Below are positions 1 through 11,246 of a DNA stretch of 23,374 bases, piece after piece. Positions within the stretch are counted from its first letter, which is position 1, and every line of letters begins with the position of its first letter. Source of the stretch: a virus; IMG/VR virus record IMGVR_UViG_3300025759_000727, positions 1 to 23,374 of that record; one strand, written 5' to 3'. The notes beneath the pieces are model-generated. The model had not been told where the DNA came from. It worked only from the letters and a program-made list of their open reading frames with translations, and ran no database searches. A program made the position numbers and the translations under genes.

Positions 1-11
1 GAATTGTAATA

Positions 12-278
12 ATGCCAAAAGAAAAAGACCCTAGATTAAAACGTGCTGGTGTAGAGGGCTTCAATAAACCAAGACGTACTCCCAAGCACAAAACCAAATC
101 ACACGTTGTTGTGGCAAAAGAAGGTGACAAGGTGAAAACAATACGATTTGGTCAACAGGGTGTATCAGGTGACAAAGGTGATACAGCAAGATCAAGAAGC
201 TTTAAAAAAAGACACGCCAGTAATATAGCTAAAGGCAAAATGTCAGCAGCATATTGGGCTAACAGGGTTAAGTGGTAG
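12..278 (+). CDS. Small basic conserved phage protein
   Basis: An 88-residue, strongly basic protein. The N-terminal 40 residues are Lys/Arg-rich and probably disordered. The C-terminal half carries an FGQQGV motif (residues 46-51), RSFKKRH (62-68) and an aromatic end, YWANRVKW (81-88). This layout (RFG-x-n, R-SF-RH, YW-x-W) recurs in small proteins of many tailed phages. I know the family as conserved but without an established function. The basic character would suit nucleic-acid contact, which is inference only. The ATG follows a TAA at 7-9 that may be the end of the preceding gene. Its stop codon overlaps the GTG start region of the next gene, so the two are probably translationally coupled. 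Confidence 0.8.
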   Translation: MPKEKDPRLKRAGVEGFNKPRRTPKHKTKSHVVVAKEGDKVKTIRFGQQGVSGDKGDTARSRSFKKRHASNIAKGKMSAAYWANRVKW

Positions 279-1975
279 TGGCTGAAAGTATTTTTGATTT
301 CTTTACAAGGGAAGCTGGGCAGAAAAGGCGCAGAGCATTAGATGATGCAGTCGGTGGTTTATTAGAGTATTTAACACCACCAAACCTACGTCCAGCAGCA
401 GAATTTGCAGCACAAGTAAATCCAATACAAGGTATGTCAGATAGCATGGCGGCAAGTGGCGTTGTGTTTGACCCAGAGCAAACAGCAGAGGCTAGGAAAC
501 GTGCTGCGTTAGATATGGGCATGGAGATGGCATTTGCTCTTACCCCTGCTGCATTGGCTGCTAGAGGCTATCTCACACCTGTTCAGGGCGTTATGGAAGG
601 GCTGTTAGGTGGCTCACCAGCGCAAAAAGCAATTACAGACGATATAGTAGAAAGATTTACGCAACCTGGTGAAGTTCCTGTTATGGGCAGTGGTCTGGGT
701 GGCGCATATGAAATGATTGGTTCTGACTTGCGAAAAAATATGGGTAACGAGCCATCATCTAGAGAAATTACAGGTCAAAATTTTGAAGGTAAAGGCGCAA
801 ATTTTTCTAATATGAAAGGGCAACGATCTAGTATTATAGATGACCATTATAGTAGAGGTTTATTGTCAACAGAAATGACACCGCCAGTGCCAATAACTTA
901 CAATGATTTAGCTGGTAAAACTATTATGGGATTAGTGGGTGATCCGACAGCTAGAAAAACAGTTACGCAAATAGGGGATTTACGTTTGGAAAATCCAGTA
1001 GACGTTCAAGCTGGTGCGGAATTTATGGATATTTACGGTTATGCATCTGCAAGGTCTGCAATGTCAGCGCAATTGCAAGAAGCTGCAAGCAGTGACGATG
1101 CGTTTTTTACTTTTCTAAATATGGCTGAAAAGTCAGGTGATTTTGCAAAGCATACAGGTGAAGCTGTTGGTGAAGCTTTTAGGGCTGCTATGACAAGTAA
1201 TAGTAACCCAATACTCCGTGACAAAATACCAATGATAAACGAAAAGATTAGAAAAATTGGCGTACCTAAAAGTGAAAAAGTTGTAGATAGTAACGGTAAC
1301 GAAATATTATTACCAAGTGGTAATCCAAAAACAAAAAACTATACGGTCTATCCGTTTGAAAATTTTAAATCTGTAGAAGACCCAAATTACATGGCAGAAT
1401 ATATTGCAAGTATTCCAACAGGATCAGAACGTGCAGCATTTATAAAAGGCTTAGATAAGGATGCATTACAAAAAGCTGGTGTGCCAAACATCGGTCAAAT
1501 TAGAGTTGCGTTGGCTAATCCAGATTTAATTGGTAGAGACTTTTTAAGTGCAGGGTATCGTGGATTTTTCCCAGATTATGATAAAGGATTAATGGATACG
1601 ACAGATGATATTCATAGAACTTATGACACATATGTAGAAAAAGTTGGGCCTTCATATACTTTAGATCAAGGCGGTGGCGGTGTGCCAGCTAATTTATTGT
1701 TTGTAGATAAAGCAGAAAAACAACGTGCAAAAGGCACTGGCGGTTTATTAGTTCCTACCTCACCTGATTATAAACAATACGAGATGTCACCAGAAGCATC
1801 TAAACAAATTATGGATGATCGTGCAGTAGAAATAGCTGATACATTTGTAGAAATAGAAAAAAGATTTGGTCGTGGTGCAGCATTGAGATATGGACATGAA
1901 CTTCTTTCAGGTGGCAGAATTAGTGGAAGTATGATAGATAGTGCTAGAAAAGCTAACGCACCAGGAATTTACTAG
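272..1975 (+). CDS. Large phage protein of unknown function, possibly an internal virion protein
   Basis: A protein of about 567 residues with a GTG start. A second GTG at 278 overlaps the previous stop as TAGTG and would give a protein starting MAESIFDFF; the AGGG at 264-267 lies 4 bases from the first and 10 from the second, so the start is unresolved. The N-terminal ~120 residues are Ala-rich and helical with a hydrophobic patch (about 85-105). The middle and C-terminal parts are soluble mixed sequence with no catalytic motif I recognise; a GGGGV loop lies near residue 470. The position just before the adaptor gene, with structural genes downstream, suggests a virion or head-associated protein. 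A polyvalent-protein fragment or a toxin-like ejected protein is an alternative. That it is a real gene is sure; its function is not known. Confidence 0.75.
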   Translation: MVVAESIFDFFTREAGQKRRRALDDAVGGLLEYLTPPNLRPAAEFAAQVNPIQGMSDSMAASGVVFDPEQTAEARKRAALDMGMEMAFALTPAALAARGYLTPVQGVMEGLLGGSPAQKAITDDIVERFTQPGEVPVMGSGLGGAYEMIGSDLRKNMGNEPSSREITGQNFEGKGANFSNMKGQRSSIIDDHYSRGLLSTEMTPPVPITYNDLAGKTIMGLVGDPTARKTVTQIGDLRLENPVDVQAGAEFMDIYGYASARSAMSAQLQEAASSDDAFFTFLNMAEKSGDFAKHTGEAVGEAFRAAMTSNSNPILRDKIPMINEKIRKIGVPKSEKVVDSNGNEILLPSGNPKTKNYTVYPFENFKSVEDPNYMAEYIASIPTGSERAAFIKGLDKDALQKAGVPNIGQIRVALANPDLIGRDFLSAGYRGFFPDYDKGLMDTTDDIHRTYDTYVEKVGPSYTLDQGGGGVPANLLFVDKAEKQRAKGTGGLLVPTSPDYKQYEMSPEASKQIMDDRAVEIADTFVEIEKRFGRGAALRYGHELLSGGRISGSMIDSARKANAPGIY

Positions 1976-1984
1976 GAGCTACTA

Positions 1985-2605
1985 ATGGCAATAACAACTT
2001 ACGCAGAGCTTAAAACAGCCGTAGCTAATTGGCTTAACCGCGATGATTTAACTGCTGTTATTCCTGATTTTATTTCACTAGCAGAAACAGATATAAACCG
2101 TAAATTAAGACATTACAAAATGATTGAACGTATGGATGCAACATTAGATAGTCGCTATGTGCAAGTTCCTAACGGTTGGTTAGAGACAATGCGGTTTAAT
2201 ATTACTAATTCTTCTACGGTAAAATTAGACTATATTGGACCTGAAGATATGCTGCAAAAACGTGAACAGAATAGTGATGCAGTAGGTGTTCCACAGTTTT
2301 ATTCTCAGATTGGTGATGCAATAGAAGTATTTCCTACACCGTCAGGTGAGTTTCCAATGCAGCTTGCTTTTTTTGAAAGAATACCATCACTGAGTGATAC
2401 CACGACATTTAACTGGTTATTACAAGATGAACCAGATTTGTATTTATATGGCACGTTGATGCAATCAGCACCATATTTATTAGATGATGCACGAACACAG
2501 ACTTGGGGCGCGTTATATACAAACGCTTTAAATTCTTTGCAAGTTGCATCAGATGACACACGTTATGGTGGTTCTGGTCGCAGAATTATCATATCTAGTT
2601 ATTAA
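1985..2605 (+). CDS. Head-tail adaptor protein (SU10-type phage adaptor)
   Basis: A 206-residue protein recognised from its start, TYAELKTAVANWLNRDDL, followed by a helix with an acidic-polar ISLAETDINRKLR segment. This is the usual opening of the SU10-like/podoviral adaptor family. The middle is beta-rich (VPNGWLETMRF; PQFYSQIGDAIEVFPTP), and a helical segment near the end (DLYLYGTLMQSAPYLLDD) is also typical. Adaptors of this family form a dodecameric ring between the portal and the tail nozzle, where fibers attach. The start is supported by GGAG five bases before the ATG. The nozzle partner is at 9089 and the portal at 16080, so the fiber block separates components that touch in the particle. 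Confidence 0.85.
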   Translation: MAITTYAELKTAVANWLNRDDLTAVIPDFISLAETDINRKLRHYKMIERMDATLDSRYVQVPNGWLETMRFNITNSSTVKLDYIGPEDMLQKREQNSDAVGVPQFYSQIGDAIEVFPTPSGEFPMQLAFFERIPSLSDTTTFNWLLQDEPDLYLYGTLMQSAPYLLDDARTQTWGALYTNALNSLQVASDDTRYGGSGRRIIISSY

Positions 2606-2618
2606 TATAAAAATGGTG

Positions 2619-2624
2619 TATAAT
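2619..2624 (+). promoter_or_regulatory. Candidate -10 promoter element before the fiber block
   Basis: A perfect TATAAT lies in the 48-base gap between the adaptor and the first fiber gene, one of the longest gaps in the window. The expected start of transcription would fall about 20 bases before the ATG at 2654, leaving room for the AAGGGA ribosome site at 2640-2645. The -35 region about 17 bases upstream matches TTGACA poorly (TAGTTA), so this would be a weak or activator-dependent promoter, or chance in AT-rich DNA. Confidence 0.3.
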
Positions 2625-2653
2625 GCACAAAGATTGATTTAAGGGAAAGCCAT

Positions 2654-3040
2654 ATGTCTTTTACAAATACTTTTGAAACCCATGTTTTAAATTATGTTTT
2701 TACTGCCACCAGTGTAACACGCCCTACAGCTTGGTATGTTGGTTTATTTACTGCTGATCCAACAGATAGCGGTTCTACAGCAAATGAAATATCAGGTAAC
2801 GGTTACGCAAGAACAGCGGTAGCTTTTAGCGTATCTAATGATTTAGCAACTAACTCAGGGGCGGTAGAGTTTCCAGCAGCATCAGGCGGCAATTGGGGAA
2901 CAATAACACACATGGCGGTAATGACTGCTTCCAGTGGTGGTACAATGATTGTTCATAGTGCTTTAACAGTTGCAAAAGCAATTAATGACGGTGATGTTTT
3001 CCGCATACCAACAGGTGACTTAGACATTACGTTAGCCTAA
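2654..3040 (+). CDS. Tail-fiber-associated structural protein
   Basis: A 128-residue protein of a pattern common in phage tail regions: an N-terminal amphipathic stretch (LNYVFTAT), then WYVGLFTADPTD, a SGNGYART loop, FPAASGG-WGTITHMAV, and a closing GDVFRIPTGDLDITL. It is beta-rich and lacks catalytic motifs. Members of this family are usually annotated as putative tail fiber proteins; I am not aware of a structure-based role for this branch. The ribosome site AAGGGA lies eight bases before the ATG. The stop codon shares its last base with the next gene's ATG (TAATG), indicating coupled translation. It opens the fiber block and may be the part that anchors fibers. Confidence 0.7.
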   Translation: MSFTNTFETHVLNYVFTATSVTRPTAWYVGLFTADPTDSGSTANEISGNGYARTAVAFSVSNDLATNSGAVEFPAASGGNWGTITHMAVMTASSGGTMIVHSALTVAKAINDGDVFRIPTGDLDITLA

Positions 3041-3825
3041 TGACTGTTTACCGCGCTAATTACGGTGATGCTTTATATGGTCAGGATACTTACGGTTTAT
3101 CTGGCTCTGTAATTGACGCAGCAGCAAGTATTACACCAATTTGCTCTGTAACAGCAACAGCGGTTAAAGTATTTCAAGGTGCATCTACGGCAACTACAGC
3201 GTGTTCTGTCACAGCTTCTTTGCAACAGGTTAAGTCAGGCGCTTCTACTGTAGCTTGTACGTCAAGTGTAACTGCAAATTCTGATACAATTATTGGTGGT
3301 GCTTCTGCCACAACGTGTACATCTGCCACAACTTCATCAGCAATTAAGGTAAGAACGGCTGCTGCTAATATTGTCTGTCAGGGCGTTGTTGTAACGGTTG
3401 CGGTAGAATATCCAGAAGTACCAGGTTTTAGACCAGGTTACGGTAAAAACACATATGGCTCATATATTTATGGTATTAACCACAGTGTAGAAGAGGGCGC
3501 TGCTGCAATTAACCTTGCTTGTAACGTCACAAGTGCTGGTATTCGCATTGCAGATGCAGCGTCAAATATCACCTTAACATCTACTATGACAGCTAACGGT
3601 GTCATAGATGTTGTGGGTCAGGCAAATATTGCACTATCATCTAGCGTAAATATAGAGTATAATCGCGTCAGATTAATGGCTGCTAGTTTAAACGTAGCTG
3701 CAACAGTAACGATTAAATCAAGGTATAAATGGTTAGATGCGCCAAATCCAACTACAACATGGACGGATGTATCAAACCCAAGTACAACTTGGACAGAAGC
3801 AGATTATTTAGAAAGGGCCGCATAA
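3040..3825 (+). CDS. Repeat-containing fiber-like protein (20-residue repeats)
   Basis: A 261-residue protein rich in Ala, Ser, Thr and Val. It has two blocks, each headed by a Tyr-Gly triplet motif: YG-x4-YG-x4-YG at residues 8-19 and a similar one at 134-145. After each header come repeats of exactly 20 residues with pattern AAxIxxxCxVTAxxxxVxxG: five after the first header (28-127) and four after the second (154-231). The tail has a short duplication, NPTTTWTDV / NPSTTWTEA. The strict period suggests a beta-solenoid or a stacked-strand fiber shaft, probably trimeric. Sequences of this style occur near fibers in other marine phage genomes, without known function as far as I know. The gene is coupled to its neighbours at both ends (TAATG start; the next ATG follows the stop directly). 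Confidence 0.7.
   Translation: MTVYRANYGDALYGQDTYGLSGSVIDAAASITPICSVTATAVKVFQGASTATTACSVTASLQQVKSGASTVACTSSVTANSDTIIGGASATTCTSATTSSAIKVRTAAANIVCQGVVVTVAVEYPEVPGFRPGYGKNTYGSYIYGINHSVEEGAAAINLACNVTSAGIRIADAASNITLTSTMTANGVIDVVGQANIALSSSVNIEYNRVRLMAASLNVAATVTIKSRYKWLDAPNPTTTWTDVSNPSTTWTEADYLERAA
3121..3732 (+). repeat. Nine in-frame 20-codon repeats in two blocks
   Basis: Protein-level repeats with a 60-base period lie inside the gene at 3040-3825. Units 1-5 are contiguous; a 26-codon spacer with a YG header follows; then come units 6-9 (the last slightly short). The conserved positions are the opening Ala-Ala/Ala-Ser, a Cys or small residue near position 6-8, V-T-A at 10-12 and a small residue at 20. 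The DNA copies are divergent, so this is an old protein repeat rather than a recent tandem DNA duplication. Confidence 0.7.
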
Positions 3826-4095
3826 ATGCCAGCATCAACAACTAATTATTCATGGAACTTACCTACCGTTGGCGGTGATGAAGATGCCTGGGGTGGTTTT
3901 TTAAATACAAATTGGACGAATTTGGACACGCTTTTAGGGGGTGTAACAAATACTGAGTTTGAAATTTTAGATGGCGCGACAGTGTCTACTGCTGAATTTA
4001 ATTATTTAGTTGGCACAACTAGCGCAATACAAACTCAGTTAAACGCTAAAGCATCAACTGGTAAGGCGATTGCTATGGCAATGGTGTTTGGATAA
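3826..4095 (+). CDS. Short tail-fiber protein (mini-fiber)
   Basis: An 89-residue protein with recognisable phage-fiber parts. The N-terminus has NYSWNLPTVGGDEDAWG and LNTNWTNLDTLLGG, a common opening of marine phage fibers. One ILDGATVSTAEFNYL unit followed by AIQTQLNAK is normally found in several tandem copies in longer fibers. The C-terminus, TGKAIAMAMVFG, is a common end module. The protein is therefore a minimal fiber with a single shaft unit, either complete in itself or a subunit assembled with the neighbours. No ribosome site is clear and the ATG directly follows the previous stop, so expression probably depends on re-initiation. Confidence 0.7.
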   Translation: MPASTTNYSWNLPTVGGDEDAWGGFLNTNWTNLDTLLGGVTNTEFEILDGATVSTAEFNYLVGTTSAIQTQLNAKASTGKAIAMAMVFG

Positions 4096-4109
4096 TATAG
4101 GAGTTTTTC

Positions 4110-4472
4110 ATGGCAAATCCAAATGTAGTCGCAGTAACTAGTATTTTAGCTCAAACAGTTTTAGATGCTGATGTTGCTGCAAGCGCAGTTAGTTTATTAA
4201 CGTGTGCATCAGATAAGTTATGTAAAATTAATTCATTAGTAATAGCTAACATAGATGGCACTAATTCTGCTGATATTTCAGTGTGGATTACACGATCTAG
4301 CGTTGATTATTACATAGCTAAAACAATCACAGTATCGGCTGATAGCACATTGCTACCCATAGATAAGAACATGGGGCTGTATTTAAATGAGGGTGACATA
4401 CTCAAGATACAAGCAAGTGCAGCAGGAGATCTATCTGCTGTTCTTTCATATGAAGAGATTGATGACGCTTAA
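4110..4472 (+). CDS. Small beta-rich structural protein near the fibers
   Basis: A 120-residue protein, beta-rich throughout, with conserved-looking segments LLTCASDKLCKINSLVIANIDG, ISVWITRS, YYIAKTITVSADSTLLPIDKNMGLYL and EGDILKIQASAAG. Proteins of this pattern are frequent in marine phage fiber regions and resemble small beta-sandwich decoration or fiber-attachment proteins. No enzyme motif is present. A good AGGAG site lies seven bases before the ATG. The fold is inferred from strand patterning and the role from position only. Confidence 0.65.
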   Translation: MANPNVVAVTSILAQTVLDADVAASAVSLLTCASDKLCKINSLVIANIDGTNSADISVWITRSSVDYYIAKTITVSADSTLLPIDKNMGLYLNEGDILKIQASAAGDLSAVLSYEEIDDA

Positions 4473-4486
4473 TAGAAAGTAGCTTA

Positions 4487-5935
4487 ATGAAAGCTTTCGG
4501 TAATATTGCAAAGGATGGTCAGGTCAGGGCAGTAGCTTCTGGTGCTTTGACTGATGGTAAAGCTGTTATTGTAAACTCTGATGGAACTGTGAGTGTTGTT
4601 GTTGAGACATCTTCTTCTGAAAATCTTGGTTCTGACGTTACTTTTAATGCTGCTAGTACATCTTTTGTAGCAAATGCATTTGATAGTACAAACAACAAAG
4701 TTGTTGTAGCGTACAGTGATGGTGGTAATAGCAGTTATGGACATGCTAGAGTTGGTACGGTAGACTCTTCAGATAATTCTATTTCTTTTGGCACAGAAGT
4801 TACTTTTATAAGTTCTGCTGTTCAGTATATTTCTGCTTGTTTTGACTCTGCAAACGGAAAAATAGTTATAGCTTACCAAGACATAAATGATAGTAATAAA
4901 GGTAAGGCTATTATAGGAACAGTAAGTGGAACTGATATATCTTTTGGCTCTTCGGTTGAATTTCAAACTGGAGAAACAACATGGATTAATGCTGTTTATG
5001 ATACTAGCACATCTAAAGTAGTTATAGTCTATAGAAACTCAAGTGGTACTGGTAAGGCCATAGTTGGAACAGTAAGCGGTACAAGTATTTCCTTTGGGTC
5101 TGCAGTAAGTACAGGACATGGTGCTCTTCAAGGAACGGCCGTCTATCACGCAGCAGCATCAAGAATTGTTGCAGCAGGAAAAGTAGACAACTCCACTGCT
5201 AATGCAGTGGTAGGGGCGGTAAGTGGTACAAGTATTAGCTTTGGAAGTGCAGTTGCATATGGAACATCTAGCGCACAAAAAAATAATAATAAAATTGGAT
5301 ATGACAGTGCCTCAGAAAAAGTAGTTGTATTTTATAGAGATGAGGGAGACAGTAGTGACGGAAAAGCTTCTGTAGGTACAGTGGACTCATCAGACAACTC
5401 CATCTCTTTTGCCACAGCAGTAACAGTTACCACAGACACAGTTGATATGGTTGGTGTACAAGGTTTTAGTTCAGGTGGTCAAATAATATTTTTATACTCT
5501 GATACGGACAACACTAAAGGGGATTTAAAAGTAGGAACAATTTCAGGGACAACTCTTTCTGTTGGCAGTGAATTAAATGTGCGTAATGGGGGTAATACAA
5601 ATTACTGGGGGCTTTGTGAAGATACTACTAATGACAGAATAGTGATTGCTTATGAGGGAGCTAGTAGTCATGGTATATCTAATGTTTACAATCCTGATTT
5701 TTCAATAACCAACATCACCTCAGAAAACTTCATAGGCTTCTCAGATGGTGCATTTGCAACCACTCAGAGTGCAGCAATAAACACAACTAACACAATAGAC
5801 AGAAACCAAAGCGGCCTCACAGCAGGGCAAACATATTTTGTGCAAGCAGATGGCACACTTGGAACAACAGCAGCTTCTCCCTCAGTAACAGCAGGAACTG
5901 CTATATCAGCTACGGAACTAATAGTGAAGGGTTAG
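4487..5935 (+). CDS. Seven-repeat beta-propeller-like fiber/adhesin, paralogue 1
   Basis: A 482-residue protein with three parts. The N-terminal module (1-48) carries AVASGALTDGKAVIVNSDGTV, a start seen in other phage fiber proteins. Seven repeats of 49-56 residues follow (about 49-102, 103-154, 155-204, 205-253, 254-309, 310-360, 361-405). Each has the pattern: Phe or Tyr-Asp-Ser-xx-x-Lys-hydrophobic-Val-hydrophobic-x-Tyr, a Gly-Lys-Ala strand, then VGTVSGTSISFG. The C-terminal module (409-482) has TSENFIGF, SGLTAGQTYFV and DGTLGTTAASPSV. Four strands per repeat and seven repeats fit a seven-bladed beta-propeller. The probable role is surface recognition, perhaps glycan binding; no catalytic residues are evident. 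The ribosome site is weak. Two more copies follow downstream. Confidence 0.7.
   Translation: MKAFGNIAKDGQVRAVASGALTDGKAVIVNSDGTVSVVVETSSSENLGSDVTFNAASTSFVANAFDSTNNKVVVAYSDGGNSSYGHARVGTVDSSDNSISFGTEVTFISSAVQYISACFDSANGKIVIAYQDINDSNKGKAIIGTVSGTDISFGSSVEFQTGETTWINAVYDTSTSKVVIVYRNSSGTGKAIVGTVSGTSISFGSAVSTGHGALQGTAVYHAAASRIVAAGKVDNSTANAVVGAVSGTSISFGSAVAYGTSSAQKNNNKIGYDSASEKVVVFYRDEGDSSDGKASVGTVDSSDNSISFATAVTVTTDTVDMVGVQGFSSGGQIIFLYSDTDNTKGDLKVGTISGTTLSVGSELNVRNGGNTNYWGLCEDTTNDRIVIAYEGASSHGISNVYNPDFSITNITSENFIGFSDGAFATTQSAAINTTNTIDRNQSGLTAGQTYFVQADGTLGTTAASPSVTAGTAISATELIVKG
4631..5701 (+). repeat. Seven ~50-codon repeats (propeller 1)
   Basis: In-frame protein repeats marked by recurrent SGTSISFG-type ends and FDS-xx-NKVVVAY-type centres. 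Units 1 and 5 have the longer VDSSDNSISF variant of the closing loop. Unit 4 is the most degenerate, with an Ala-rich centre. Unit 7 lacks the SGTSISFG end and runs directly into the C-terminal module. Confidence 0.7.
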
Positions 5936-5938
5936 ACA

Positions 5939-6202
5939 ATGAAAACTATCGTGGAAACATCAACTAAGTTAAGCAAGTATCTACTTGCAGATGACGTAGC
6001 AATTACAGCAACATCAGATAATATCACAGTAGGAGATCCTGCACAGTTTATTATCGCTGATCTAAACAGTGGCAACACGACTATTACTGAGAACGTGACC
6101 AACGCACCAAGCGATTGGACAGGCAACAAGTATTTCTTAGATGGCACAACTTGGTCAGCTAATCCTGATTGGGTAGACCCAGAAGCGGATGACGGAGAGT
6201 AA
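5939..6202 (+). CDS. Small conserved fiber-region protein
   Basis: An 87-residue acidic, beta-rich protein opening KTIVETSTKLSKYLL, with VGDPAQFIIADLNSGNT, ENVTNAPSDWTGNKYF and an acidic tail, DWVDPEADDGE. Proteins of this type occur beside fiber genes in marine phages, and I know of no demonstrated function. It lies three bases after paralogue 1 and five before paralogue 2. Co-expression with the propellers as a connector, chaperone or fiber subunit is plausible but inferred. The end of the previous gene (GAAGGG) supplies a modest ribosome site. Confidence 0.7.
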   Translation: MKTIVETSTKLSKYLLADDVAITATSDNITVGDPAQFIIADLNSGNTTITENVTNAPSDWTGNKYFLDGTTWSANPDWVDPEADDGE

Positions 6203-6207
6203 AAGCA

Positions 6208-7662
6208 ATGCGTATCATTGGTAATGATCCAAGCGTACCAAGACAGGAACACGCTGTAGCTAGTGGTACGTTGACGAATGGTTCAAGTGTTATTGTTAAT
6301 TCTGATGGGACTGTCAGTGTTGTTGCAGGGTCTGACACTACTTCTGGAACGGCTGTTCAGTTTGAATCTGGAAACATAAACAAACCAAGATCTGCTTATG
6401 ATACTACTAATAATAGAGTAGTTATAGCTTACGCAGACTTAGGTAATAGTTATTATGGAACGGCTGTGGTCGGAACAGTTTCTGGCACAAGTATTTCTTT
6501 TGGAACTCCTGCTGTATTTAATAGCGCCCAAAGCAACGGTAGTATGAGTATCGTCTTTGATGATAATGCAGGTAAAGTTGTAATTTCATATCAAGATGGT
6601 GGAACTAATCAGGGAGAGTCTGTGGTTGGCACAGTATCAGGAACTTCTATTAGTTTTGGGTCTACTGCTACTTTTTTAGGTAATGATTTTAATAATTTAG
6701 TCGCATCTTACGACAGTAATTTAAATAAAGTTTTACTTGTTTACAGAGATGGAAATACCTCAAATCGTGGGGCTGCTGTAGTCGGAACTGTGTCTGGTAC
6801 AACTATAAGTTTTGGAAGTCAGGCTCTTTTTACGGCAGATACCCCTGCAAGACCTAACGTGTGTTTTGACAGTAATGCTAACAAGTTTTTAATTGTTTAT
6901 GATGACGGCGGAGATAGTAATAAAGGAAAATCTGTTGTTGCTACAATTTCAGGCACGAGTGTTAGCTTTGGTAGTGAAGTTACTTTCCATGATGCAGGGA
7001 CAGATTGGATAGGAACATCTTTTGACAGTGATGAAAACAAAATATTAGTTGTTTATGAGGATACAGCAGATAGCAATAAAGGTAAGGCGGTTGTCGGAAC
7101 AATCTCAGGGACGAGTGTTAGCTATGGTTCTGAAGTAGAAATTGGAAACTCTTCTGCTACTCTGGCTGAGATTGGAGTAGTGTATGATACAAATTTAGAT
7201 GCTCATGTAATTACATTTCGTCCAGACTCATCAACACGGACACTTGAAACTATTGCTGCACAAGTATCAGGAACAACTGCAACATTCTCTAGTTCAGTTT
7301 CTTTAACAAATTCTGTATCAGATGAAATAGCTTTTCCAATATTTGATCCAGATACAAACAAAGTTATACTAGCATATCGTGATGAAAATGATAGCGGCAA
7401 AGGTAAAGCAATAGTTTTAAGTCCTGGGCTTGGCTCTAACATCACCTCAGAGAACTTTATAGGCATAGCTCGTAGTGGTGCAGCTTCTGGTGCAGGGGCT
7501 ATCATAGATACGCAAGGTGCAATAGCCGACAACTTGTCTGGGCTAACAGCAGGGCAAAGCTACTTTGTTCAGGGTGATGGCACACTAGGTACAACGGCTG
7601 CTAGTCCTAGCGTCTTTGCAGGGACGGCTGTGTCAGCAACTAAACTTATCGTGAAAGGTTAG
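6208..7662 (+). CDS. Seven-repeat beta-propeller-like fiber/adhesin, paralogue 2
   Basis: A 484-residue paralogue of the gene at 4487. The N-terminal module (1-46) carries AVASGTLTNGSSVIVNSDGTV. Seven repeats follow (about 47-99, 100-151, 152-203, 204-255, 256-307, 308-360, 361-406). The first five are very regular at 52 residues, with closing motif SGTSISFG or SGTSVSFG. Repeat 6 is divergent (centre AHVITFRPD, end SGTTATFS). The C-terminal module (411-484) has TSENFIGI, SGLTAGQSYFV and DGTLGTTAASPSV. The conserved frame with varied loops between the first strand and the FDS motif suggests a common scaffold carrying different binding surfaces. GGAG precedes the ATG inside the end of the 87-residue gene. 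Ligand unknown. Confidence 0.7.
   Translation: MRIIGNDPSVPRQEHAVASGTLTNGSSVIVNSDGTVSVVAGSDTTSGTAVQFESGNINKPRSAYDTTNNRVVIAYADLGNSYYGTAVVGTVSGTSISFGTPAVFNSAQSNGSMSIVFDDNAGKVVISYQDGGTNQGESVVGTVSGTSISFGSTATFLGNDFNNLVASYDSNLNKVLLVYRDGNTSNRGAAVVGTVSGTTISFGSQALFTADTPARPNVCFDSNANKFLIVYDDGGDSNKGKSVVATISGTSVSFGSEVTFHDAGTDWIGTSFDSDENKILVVYEDTADSNKGKAVVGTISGTSVSYGSEVEIGNSSATLAEIGVVYDTNLDAHVITFRPDSSTRTLETIAAQVSGTTATFSSSVSLTNSVSDEIAFPIFDPDTNKVILAYRDENDSGKGKAIVLSPGLGSNITSENFIGIARSGAASGAGAIIDTQGAIADNLSGLTAGQSYFVQGDGTLGTTAASPSVFAGTAVSATKLIVKG
6346..7425 (+). repeat. Seven ~52-codon repeats (propeller 2)
   Basis: The most regular of the three repeat arrays: repeats 1-5 are 52-53 residues each. Repeat ends read SGTSISFG, SGTSISFG, SGTTISFG, SGTSVSFG and SGTSVSYG, then a variant SGTTATFS. 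The seventh unit ends without the motif, as in the other two paralogues. Confidence 0.7.
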
Positions 7663-7664
7663 AC

Positions 7665-9080
7665 ATGTTAAAACGTATAGGTGCTGAAGAGAGTGGTGAG
7701 TTTAAAGCGATAGCCAGTGGCACATTGCCAAGCGGTAAGCCAGTGGTGGTTAATGCTGATGGGACTGTGAGTGTTGTTAGTGGATCGGATGCTTCTATAG
7801 GATCAGCAGCAGTTTTTGAAAGCGCAAGCACAGGTAAAACCGCTTCAACATTTGACTCAAGTAATAATAAAATAGTTATATGTTATAGGGATGTGGGTAA
7901 TAGTTCTCACGGCACTGCCGTTGTAGGTACAGTTAGTGGAAGTTCTATTTCTTTTGGAACACCAGTAGTATTTAATGCTGCCTATACTAATGAACTAAGT
8001 GTTATCTTTGATAGTAATTCTAATAAAGTGGTGGTGGTTTATGCAAATAGTTCGCAAGGGACTGCCAAGGTAGGCACAGTGTCAGGAACTAGTATTTCAT
8101 TTGGAAGTGCTACTGTCTTTGATGCGGCTCAAGGTGTCTACTTGGGTGCTACTTTTGACAGCAACAGTAACAAAGTTGTGGTAGTTTATACAGGAACAAA
8201 CAACTATGTTGAGTCAAGAGTAGGAACTATTTCTGGTACGTCCATAAGTTTTGGTACTGCTGTAGTTGCTAAATCTTCTTCTACAGACGGAAATGCAATC
8301 ACTTTTGACAGTAATAGGAACAAAATAGTAATAGTATCTAGAATAGGCACAAACGCTCAAGCAATGGTAGGAACAGTTAGTGGTACGTCTATAAGTTTTG
8401 CAAGTTCTGTTGGTATAGGAACTCAAACTAAATTTTTAGCTCTTACTTTTGATAGCTCAAATAATAAAGTTATTACTGCTTTTGTGGATGGTAGCGATGC
8501 AGATCAAGGTAAAGTTATTGTTGGAGACATAGACGGTAGTGGAGTTATAAGTTTTGGCACTGCTGTTGAATACAATGCTAATATAGATGAACAGCAAGGA
8601 GTTGCTTTTGATAGCAATGCTAACAAAGTTATTGTTGCTTACGACTCAGCAGGTACAAGCAAAGGGCAGGTGATAAGCGGTACAGTTAGTGGTACTAGTA
8701 TATCCTTTGATTCGGAGACAGTATTTGAGGCTGCAAATGTTGAAGGTGTTTCTGTTGCTTTTGACAGCAATGCTAACAAAAATGTTATTTCTTACATAGA
8801 TGGAGATAATTCAAGATATGGTACTTCTGCTGTCTTTGCTCCTGCTTCCACCACCATGACCTCAGAAAACTACATTGGTATGTCCAAAGGTGGGGCTGTA
8901 GCTGACACCAAGGGTGCAACCGTAGATATTATTGGTGCAGTAAATGATGAGCAATCTGGCCTCACACCAGGACAACAATATTTCGTACAGAATGATGGAA
9001 CGATAGGCACAACGGCTGCAACGCCAAGTGTACTGGCAGGGACTGCTATTTCAGCGACAGAATTATTAGTAAAAACGTAA
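7665..9080 (+). CDS. Seven-repeat beta-propeller-like fiber/adhesin, paralogue 3
   Basis: A 471-residue paralogue starting two bases after paralogue 2. The N-terminal module (1-45) carries AIASGTLPSGKPVVVNADGTV. Seven repeats of 48-53 residues follow (about 46-98, 99-147, 148-197, 198-246, 247-298, 299-349, 350-394), with centres of FDSN-x-NKVVVVY type. Repeat 5 has a variant close, DIDGSGVISFG. The C-terminal module (398-471) reads TSENYIGM, SGLTPGQQYFV and DGTIGTTAATPSV. It is shorter than its paralogues because several loops are trimmed, not because a repeat is missing. AAAGG at the end of paralogue 2 serves as the ribosome site. Probably an alternative or additional receptor-binding or decoration protein; no catalytic residues recognised. 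Confidence 0.7.
   Translation: MLKRIGAEESGEFKAIASGTLPSGKPVVVNADGTVSVVSGSDASIGSAAVFESASTGKTASTFDSSNNKIVICYRDVGNSSHGTAVVGTVSGSSISFGTPVVFNAAYTNELSVIFDSNSNKVVVVYANSSQGTAKVGTVSGTSISFGSATVFDAAQGVYLGATFDSNSNKVVVVYTGTNNYVESRVGTISGTSISFGTAVVAKSSSTDGNAITFDSNRNKIVIVSRIGTNAQAMVGTVSGTSISFASSVGIGTQTKFLALTFDSSNNKVITAFVDGSDADQGKVIVGDIDGSGVISFGTAVEYNANIDEQQGVAFDSNANKVIVAYDSAGTSKGQVISGTVSGTSISFDSETVFEAANVEGVSVAFDSNANKNVISYIDGDNSRYGTSAVFAPASTTMTSENYIGMSKGGAVADTKGATVDIIGAVNDEQSGLTPGQQYFVQNDGTIGTTAATPSVLAGTAISATELLVKT
7800..8846 (+). repeat. Seven ~50-codon repeats (propeller 3)
   Basis: In-frame repeats with the same frame as in the two upstream genes. The FDSN-x-NKV centre is more uniform here than in paralogue 1, suggesting more recent internal homogenisation or stronger constraint. 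The seventh unit again lacks the SGTSISFG end and joins the C-terminal module. Confidence 0.7.
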
Positions 9081-9088
9081 GGTGAATA

Positions 9089-10567
9089 ATGCCGTTAATT
9101 TCTATGCAAATTCCAAAAGGTCAGTATAGAAATGGCACTGATCTTATGTCACAAGGTAGATGGCGTGATGTAGATTTAGTTCGTTGGCATGAAGACGCTT
9201 TGCGTCCTATAGGTGGTTGGCGTCAAAGGCAAAGCGTAAATATTAGCGGTGTTGCTCGTTCAATAATAGCTTGGGAAGATAACAGCGCCAACAGAAGACT
9301 AGCTACTGGAACTTTTAACAAATTATATGCATTACAAGCTGATGGAACTTCAGCAGATATTACTCCTGTTGGACTTACTGCTGGGCGTGTAGATGCAACT
9401 ATAAACACTGGTTATGGCGCTAGTTTTTATGGGCGTGAAGAATACGGACTGCCAAGAGCCGACAGTGAAAACATATTAAAAGCTACCGTTTGGTCATTAG
9501 ATAACTATGGAGAATTTCTTCTAGCTATGTCTCCTGACGATGGAAAATTGTATGAATGGCAGTTAAATAATGCTGTTAAAGCTGCACAAGTAACTAACGC
9601 TCCTACTTCTTGTTCTGGGTTTATGGTTACAGAAGAAAGATTTGTAGTTTGTTTTGGCGCTGGTGGTGATAGCCGAAAAGTGCAGTGGTCAGATCAAGAA
9701 GATAACACAACTTGGACAGCAGCCGCTACAAACCAAGCTGGTGATATACTACTACAGACTAATGGTGTTATTTTACGAGGTTTAAGAACAAGAGGGCAAT
9801 CACTGATTTTAACCACAGAAGATGCCCACAGCATGACCTATCAAGGGCCACCATTTGTTTATGGTCTAGAAAGAGTTGGAACGTCTTGTGGGTTAATAGG
9901 CGCTGCTGCTGCTGTAGCTGTGGACGCTGGAGTGTTCTGGATGGGTCAGCGTGGTTTCTTTGCTTATTCTGGTGGTAGGGTTCAAGATATACCATGTGAA
10001 GTTGGAGATTATGTTTTTTCTGATTTTAATAATGACCAACGTAGTAAAGTTAGTGCTGTAGTAAACTCTGCTTGGAATGAAATATGGTGGTTTTATCCTA
10101 GCTCAGATAGCATGGAATGTAACAGATATGTAGCTTACGATTACGCAGAAAACATATGGACTACTGGTTCTATGGATCGCACTGCTGGAGTTGATCGTGG
10201 TGTATTTCGTTACCCTATGTACATCAAAAGCAATGGTATTTTATACGAACACGAAATAGGTTATAATTATGACACTGGAACGCCATTTGCTGAAACAGGG
10301 CCAATATCAATTGGAAATGGTGAAAACTTAATGAATGTTGTAGAACTTATACCTGATGAAAAAACATTAGGTGACGTTACTGCAAAGTTTAAAACAAGGT
10401 TTTATCCTACTGCTGCTGAAACAACTTACGGCCCATTTACAATGAGCAACCCAACATCTGTAAGGTTTCAGGGGCGTCAAGTTCGTATGCGTGTAGAGGG
10501 CAACACAGCGTCAGATTGGCGTGTTGGCATAATGCGATTAGATGCGCGGCAAGGTGGGCGTAGATGA
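9089..10567 (+). CDS. Tail nozzle / packaged-DNA stabilization protein (P22 gp10-like)
   Basis: A 492-residue protein I recognise with high confidence. Its hallmarks, in order, are QIPKGQYRNGTD, GRWRDVDLVRWHE, LRPIGGWRQRQ, IIAWEDNS, a GYGASFYG-x-EEYG loop, WSLDNYGEFLLA, DDGKLYEWQLN, VTEERFVVCFGAGG, VQWSDQEDNTTW, WMGQRGFFAYSGG, WNEIWWFYPS, FKTRFYPT and a basic RLDARQGGRR end. In P22 the family plugs the portal channel after packaging; in SU10-like phages it forms the tail nozzle below the adaptor ring. The repeated Trp-rich strands fit a beta-propeller body. AAGGTGA lies before the ATG. The stop overlaps the next ATG (ATGA), linking it to the jelly-roll protein that probably docks on it. Confidence 0.88.
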   Translation: MPLISMQIPKGQYRNGTDLMSQGRWRDVDLVRWHEDALRPIGGWRQRQSVNISGVARSIIAWEDNSANRRLATGTFNKLYALQADGTSADITPVGLTAGRVDATINTGYGASFYGREEYGLPRADSENILKATVWSLDNYGEFLLAMSPDDGKLYEWQLNNAVKAAQVTNAPTSCSGFMVTEERFVVCFGAGGDSRKVQWSDQEDNTTWTAAATNQAGDILLQTNGVILRGLRTRGQSLILTTEDAHSMTYQGPPFVYGLERVGTSCGLIGAAAAVAVDAGVFWMGQRGFFAYSGGRVQDIPCEVGDYVFSDFNNDQRSKVSAVVNSAWNEIWWFYPSSDSMECNRYVAYDYAENIWTTGSMDRTAGVDRGVFRYPMYIKSNGILYEHEIGYNYDTGTPFAETGPISIGNGENLMNVVELIPDEKTLGDVTAKFKTRFYPTAAETTYGPFTMSNPTSVRFQGRQVRMRVEGNTASDWRVGIMRLDARQGGRR

Positions 10568-11214
10568 GGATTGTCCCACCGTATACACCAGATATACAAT
10601 CATGGGCTGAAAATATTAGGAAGTTTCTTGGCAAAGCCCTCAATCAATTAGATGCAAAAGATCAGTATAGTTCTGCTGCTGAAGATGGTGTTATTTTATA
10701 TGATAGAGTAAATGGATACCCTGTTGTCAGTAAAAACGGTGTGTGGCGTCAAATAGTTTTAGAAGGTGGACACGGTGATTTTTATATTAATACAGACGTA
10801 ACAGCGGCAAGCGCAAATACAGAGTATCAACTTACATACACGGCTGAAGCTAGTAATTCTGGTATTACTTTGGGAAGTCCTGCAAGTAGAATTGTTTTTG
10901 GAGAAGCTGGGCAGTATGTTATAGCTTTCTCAGCGCAAATATCATCTACATCGGCAAGCACTGTTCATTTTTATTTCTGGCCTAGCGTAAATGGAACAGA
11001 TATAAATAATAGCGCAATGACCACAGCTTTGCACCAAAACAATGCAACTTTGGTTGCTGCAAGAACTCAGGTTTTTACGGTAGCGGCTAATGATTATTTA
11101 GAAGTAAATTGGATGACAGATAGCACTAGTGGTTTTTTAAATGCTACGGCTGCCTCTGCGCCAGTGCCAAATATTCCTGCTTCAACTTTGTCAATTACAA
11201 GATTACATGGGTAG
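10564..11214 (+). CDS. Jelly-roll (C1q/TNF-like) fiber protein
   Basis: A 216-residue protein. The N-terminal ~60 residues are helical and look like an attachment segment (QSWAENIRKFLGKALNQLD, then DGVILYDRVNGYPVVSKNGVW). From about residue 75 there is a beta-sandwich pattern typical of trimeric C1q/TNF-like heads: NTEYQLTYT, IVFGEAGQYVIAFSAQ, VHFYFWPSVNGTDI, TQVFTVAANDYLEVNWM, ending IPASTLSITRL. Such heads occur at fiber tips and as head fibers in tailed phages. The ATGA overlap with the nozzle gene suggests stoichiometric expression and a place on the tail. Exact location, tail tip or capsid, cannot be told from sequence. Confidence 0.72.
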   Translation: MRIVPPYTPDIQSWAENIRKFLGKALNQLDAKDQYSSAAEDGVILYDRVNGYPVVSKNGVWRQIVLEGGHGDFYINTDVTAASANTEYQLTYTAEASNSGITLGSPASRIVFGEAGQYVIAFSAQISSTSASTVHFYFWPSVNGTDINNSAMTTALHQNNATLVAARTQVFTVAANDYLEVNWMTDSTSGFLNATAASAPVPNIPASTLSITRLHG

Positions 11215-11246
11215 GGGTGTAAATATGTATAAACTATGGTAAAATT

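Follow-up and report, generated by a model that had tools for sequence, protein, structure and literature searches.

Beta-propellers have been reported to be rare in phage receptor-binding proteins (PMC4901313). The authors of that report cite propellers in the putative receptor-binding proteins gp131C of PhiKZ, which is seven-bladed, and P2 of PRD1. The SU10 nozzle protein brings a seven-bladed propeller into a podovirus tail (PMC9509320), and the Photorhabdus PLL/PHL lectins bind sugars between blades, at sites with Trp stacking (PMC6943638). For Alteromonas phage A5/V22, tail-fibre and chaperone modules for host recognition are described as common to distantly related phages (PMC10579305). 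Finally, in the Lentibacter phage vB_LenP_ICBM2 study the region around gp49 is said to encode three chaperones and two tail fibres (PMC6775973).

Gene context and repeat units

The window, meaning the whole stretch of DNA analyzed here, is a 23,374-base IMG/VR virus record from an SU10/GP4-like podovirus. The phage is marine and short-tailed, and its gene content places it in this group: an SU10-type portal, capsid and adaptor are all present together with a GP4 fibre I homologue, and the nearest named portal, that of Octadecabacter phage DB2, is 49% identical. The tail adaptor (1985..2605; PF24175 SU10_adaptor) and the fibre I homologue (2654..3040; PF23140 Gp80) are encoded on the plus strand, as is a virion structural protein (9089..10567; phrog_3287), which is 53% identical to DB2 gp13 and for which we infer a role in the tail tube or nozzle. 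In one relative, L001, the C-terminal part of a 216-aa ORF at 10564-11214 is replaced, the alignment ending at 10707 and restarting at 11236 in DNA that is elsewhere about 99% identical; this ORF is possibly a second site of receptor-binding exchange.

Three genes, F1, F2 and F3, are arranged nearly end to end on the plus strand, with an 87-aa ORF (5939..6202, plus strand), absent from the original prediction, intervening after F1. F1 (position 1; 482 aa) occupies 4487..5935, with an N-terminal module (N-module) at 4487-4624, seven units at 4625-5683 and a C-terminal module (C-module) extending to the stop. F2 (position 2; 484 aa) occupies 6208..7662 and F3 (position 3; 471 aa) 7665..9080; their N-modules lie at 6208-6339 and 7665-7790 and their seven units at 6340-7419 and 7791-8837, and in each the C-module again extends to the stop.

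The original prediction had read exactly seven repeats in each protein, framed by common end modules, with the seventh repeat lacking the terminal SGTSISFG. All three features were confirmed. A unit HMM trained solely on relatives less than 52% identical to the window proteins counts seven units of about 51 aa in each of F1, F2 and F3, scoring 20-75 bits per unit, whereas 300 shuffled sequences reach at most 9 bits. In F1 the units are located at 4625-4762, 4778-4930, 4931-5080, 5081-5227, 5228-5383, 5399-5548 and 5549-5683. The end modules are common to all three proteins, and the seventh unit has no D strand (SGTSISFG) because the units are circularly permuted, the first D strand being N-terminal. 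With the best cut of the unit, D-A-B-C, each protein totals seven D strands and seven A-B-C sets, a degenerate D strand preceding unit 1 ('ASIGSA' at residues ~43-48 of F3; 'ENLGSD' in F1). Judged by sequence, the outer strand of unit 7 sits at the N-terminus, as Velcro closure predicts.

Family searches did not assign these proteins: PHROGs gave no convincing family for F1, F2 or F3, and no curated tail family in Pfam or PHROGs matches them directly. A match of F1 to PF18050 (Cyclophil_like2) scored above the cut-off and was rejected as spurious: its 42 residues fall within a single repeat region, and the match reappears on the repeats. Taken at face value, this match on the repeats of 4487-5935 would mislabel these proteins.

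Fold and unit number

An AlphaFold2 model of the F3 monomer (mf0714093a5e8), built with 44 aligned sequences, was confident (pLDDT 92, pTM 0.85). Its residues ~40-395 superpose in VIA on solved seven-bladed propellers with Z of 29-36 over about 300 residues, among them CylK (Z 36, 324 residues, 2.4 A), YncE (Z 32) and the lectin PLL4 (Z 31, 310 residues, 2.6 A). The seven-bladed matches from Foldseek and VIA also include WD40 proteins. Several of these alignments begin at residues 40-45; the lectins align from residue 57, past the putative closing strand. The structure prediction thus returned a confident model with closed-propeller matches and no solenoid, and the seven-bladed propeller of the original prediction is strongly supported by the F3 model, its fold matches and the 7 or 14 units of the relatives. 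On this evidence, it is close to certain that F1, F2 and F3 each form a closed seven-bladed beta-propeller.

In one loose scan, matches that code for relatives came from at least 562 stretches of viral contigs. Units were counted in complete proteins from IMG/VR contigs, in two sets of 81 and 132. In the first, nearly all proteins of ~480 aa have 7 units and those of ~855 aa have 14. In the second, 7 units occur in 114 proteins and 14 units in seven, and a single protein of 2350 aa shows 27 detected units grouped 7, 7, 7 and 6; the remainder are divergent, have one weak unit missed or carry an extra stray match. The contig that encodes the 2350-aa protein (L077:5448-12500) has been assigned to a Euryarchaeota bin (MAG PBTA01000007.1). 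N-module and C-module lie 418-456 aa apart in seven-unit proteins and 788-818 aa apart in 14-unit proteins, and the sole in-between span, 695 aa in L082, comprises a seven-unit propeller and an extra unrelated domain.

Relatives with six or eight units, which would have counted against a ring of seven, gave no convincing case among the complete proteins. Apparent 6- and 13-unit proteins in L038, L065 and L034 were rejected, the missed degenerate unit being present on reading. In L006:1-525, an F1-like gene cut by the contig end, unit 3 is joined to the final blade, leaving about four units; this is possibly a real exception, or else an assembly artefact in which reads were joined across the recurring SGTSISFG motif. 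We propose that an incomplete ring would be unable to fold, so that unit number would change only by whole rings of seven. The model of a 14-unit relative (L029, 842 aa) was weaker (pLDDT 82, pTM 0.50); seven-bladed propellers were matched by its residues 44-394, and Sec12 (Z 29) by residues 417-779, each modelled half thus resembling a seven-bladed fold, as two rings would.

Exchange of propellers and probable receptor binding

Three genes in a row recur across many loci, including the divergent L034, L036, L037 and L060. Among the 16 loci with all three genes complete, identity between proteins at the same position exceeded that between proteins at different positions in the first 16 residues (0.607 vs 0.262), in the N-module (0.604 vs 0.459) and in the C-module (0.682 vs 0.558), with none of 500 permutations matching the difference in any of the three. 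For the propellers the values were 0.450 and 0.444 (27/500 permutations), a difference of only 0.006, and position-specific propellers were rejected. At this level of comparison, the first residues and the C-module are position-specific and the propellers are not.

Comparison with the DNA of relatives revealed four conserved blocks, all on the plus strand, with replaced DNA between them: 3955..4601 (the ORF at 4110 and the F1 N-module), 5710..6317 (the F1 C-module, the 87-aa ORF and the F2 N-module), 7438..7781 (the F2 C-module and the F3 N-module) and 8916..9089 (the F3 C-module). Replacement starts at the right edge of the first block. L057, for example, is 98.96% identical to the window over 1-4595, carries a different F1 propeller and is then 93% identical over 5710-7201. 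Propeller pairs that are 80-99% identical occupy different gene positions: L027 has an F2-like propeller in position 1, L006 has an F3-like one in position 2, and two propellers 99% identical as protein occupy position 1 of L008 and position 2 of L052, where the DNA stretch, flank included, is 92% identical. In L029, an F3 propeller 93% identical to that of the window is followed by a second propeller. In L001, differences from the window cluster at 4543-4577 and 5914-6097, with 4578-5913 identical, which fits tracts of recombination whose ends lie within the conserved modules. The alignments provide good support for whole propellers having been replaced between near-identical genomes, moved between positions and doubled to 14 units.

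The conserved N- and C-module DNA may serve as homology arms, through which recombination would swap the propeller and leave assembly undisturbed. Two other routes to diversity were discarded. Long exact repeats within the window, through which recombination might have run, are lacking: F1, F2 and F3 share no identical stretch of 20 or more bases. Diversification by a DGR is disfavored by the few propeller differences among near-identical genomes, where substitutions are not A-specific.

The original prediction had offered either a receptor-binding set with several specificities or a heteromeric fibre. A single heteromeric adhesin with one chain per position, in place of three independent adhesins, would account for the recurrence of exactly three genes even in the divergent loci and for the position-specific end modules. 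However, 7- and 14-unit proteins mix freely among positions, the three N-termini resemble one another in L036 and L060, and three genes could equally reflect three attachment sites; we regard the heteromer as rather doubtful.

The reading as a receptor-binding set fits the gene position, the module exchange, the tail-fibre N-terminal fusions of relatives and a chaperone-type relative of the adjoining gene. F1-F3 are encoded among tail genes, and the corresponding interval of DB2 is annotated tailspike, ribonuclease E and tail fibre. The 87-aa ORF, linked to the propeller genes in most loci, shares 42% identity with ICBM2 gp48 over the N-terminal 81 aa of the latter. The C-terminal half of gp48 is a Phage_tail_APC domain (PF16778), which ICBM2 gp50 also has; the ORF of the window lacks this half and gives no PF16778 match. 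In divergent relatives the end modules are fused to known tail N-termini: in L044 to Mtd_N (Major tropism determinant N-terminal domain), and in L043 to the phrog_892 tail-fibre N-terminus. In the L044 protein (L044:866-4483), the middle region between the end modules has diverged beyond what the unit HMM recognises. The layout of F1-F3, a conserved N-terminal attachment segment and an exchanged distal domain, is that of receptor-binding proteins. From this contextual evidence we conclude that F1-F3 are most likely tail adhesins, each with a position-specific N-terminal segment, one closed seven-bladed propeller and a C-terminal module, and that the propellers are likely exchangeable receptor-binding heads. 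The N-terminal segment and C-module would anchor each protein at its own site on the podovirus tail, and three different propellers would give one phage several specificities at once.

The term fibre, used in the original prediction, agrees with the gene position and suits the shape poorly, as each protein is a compact propeller preceded by a short N-terminal piece, and a shaft is not seen. The missing shaft, together with the lack of a direct match to curated tail families, would also be expected of capsid decorations or secreted glycan-binding proteins, which we consider improbable given the tail-gene position, the adjoining chaperone-type relative and the tail-fibre N-terminal fusions.

Loop comparison, suggested with the original prediction, placed the variation in the D-A and B-C loops. 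With each loop assigned to a face according to its place in the unit, as in other propellers, and with some sequences shared among the compared pairs, 20.2% of residues differ in these top-face loops (pN/pS 0.44) and 8.0% in the bottom-face loops (pN/pS 0.16). No sign of positive selection was seen, pN/pS being below 1 in every region compared. This bias suggests that constraint is weaker on one propeller face, which may be where ligand binds; this variable face would bind a host surface glycan or protein. That the propellers are instead sialidase- or depolymerase-like enzymes cutting host surface polysaccharide is unlikely: the Foldseek matches to F3 include sialidases and the glycoside hydrolase BT3686, but at ~10% identity, non-catalytic seven-bladed folds rank high in VIA, and a non-systematic look identified no catalytic signature. 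Least credible by far is an open solenoid or a row of separate domains with a coincidental seven, for although unit number often varies in repeat proteins, no tool result favours it, and the 7 or 14 units, the putative N-terminal closing strand and the confident closed-propeller matches oppose it.

Returning to exchangeable tail adhesins, we lean toward a three-position system that evolves by whole closed propellers, these recombining between positions and phages by way of the conserved end modules, fusing in sevens and being joined to unrelated propellers, which would give a combinatorial host range without a diversifying enzyme. Propeller swapping in three fixed positions could allow quick host change. 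With positions that recur, edges that are conserved and unit counts of 7 or 14, the evolution of host range through exchange of entire domains can be put to a direct test, and adhesins largely missed by current Pfam and PHROGs models can be recognised.

Comparison with described systems

Propeller receptor-binding proteins are already known; the recurring three positions and the exchange of whole propellers are new here. A literature search in which few subscription journals were covered found no description of a three-position propeller arrangement. The receptor-binding protein gp45 of Staphylococcus phage phi11 has a propeller closed by an N-terminal strand, as predicted for F1-F3, but differs from them in its five blades, homotrimeric assembly, and helical stem and tower (PMC4901313). 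For PhiKZ gp131C and PRD1 P2, that report mentions no tandem three-gene set or cassette exchange. The SU10 nozzle, although a seven-bladed propeller from a phage type whose genes the window shares, is an internal tail-channel protein, and the nozzle role in the window probably belongs to the gene at 9089 rather than to F1-F3.

The PLL/PHL lectins, with which F3 aligns at Z of about 30-31 and ~2.6 A, resemble it in having seven blades of four strands. A phmmer search of F3 against PDB sequences found no significant match. The Trp sites of the lectins are unmatched in F1, F2 and F3, which contain 2, 1 and 0 Trp, respectively.

The full-length relative in a named phage is the hypothetical protein gp49 of ICBM2 (AYP28108.1), 27% identical to F2 over 503 aa. 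Like the window genes, it adjoins a counterpart of the 87-aa ORF, gp48; unlike them, it is divergent, has a different N-terminus and is the only propeller gene of its kind in that phage. ICBM2 gp51 (L072:2272-3483) contains an unrelated propeller-like repeat of the DGTKMY...YSLSTAW type, with five units by eye, and in L050:9224-11488 a seven-unit propeller is followed in one protein by a five-unit (by eye) repeat of this type.

Alteromonas phage A5/V22 offers a parallel in the exchange of host-recognition modules. There the exchanged piece is a fibre plus its chaperone, whereas the phages related to the window swap a single propeller between conserved end modules.
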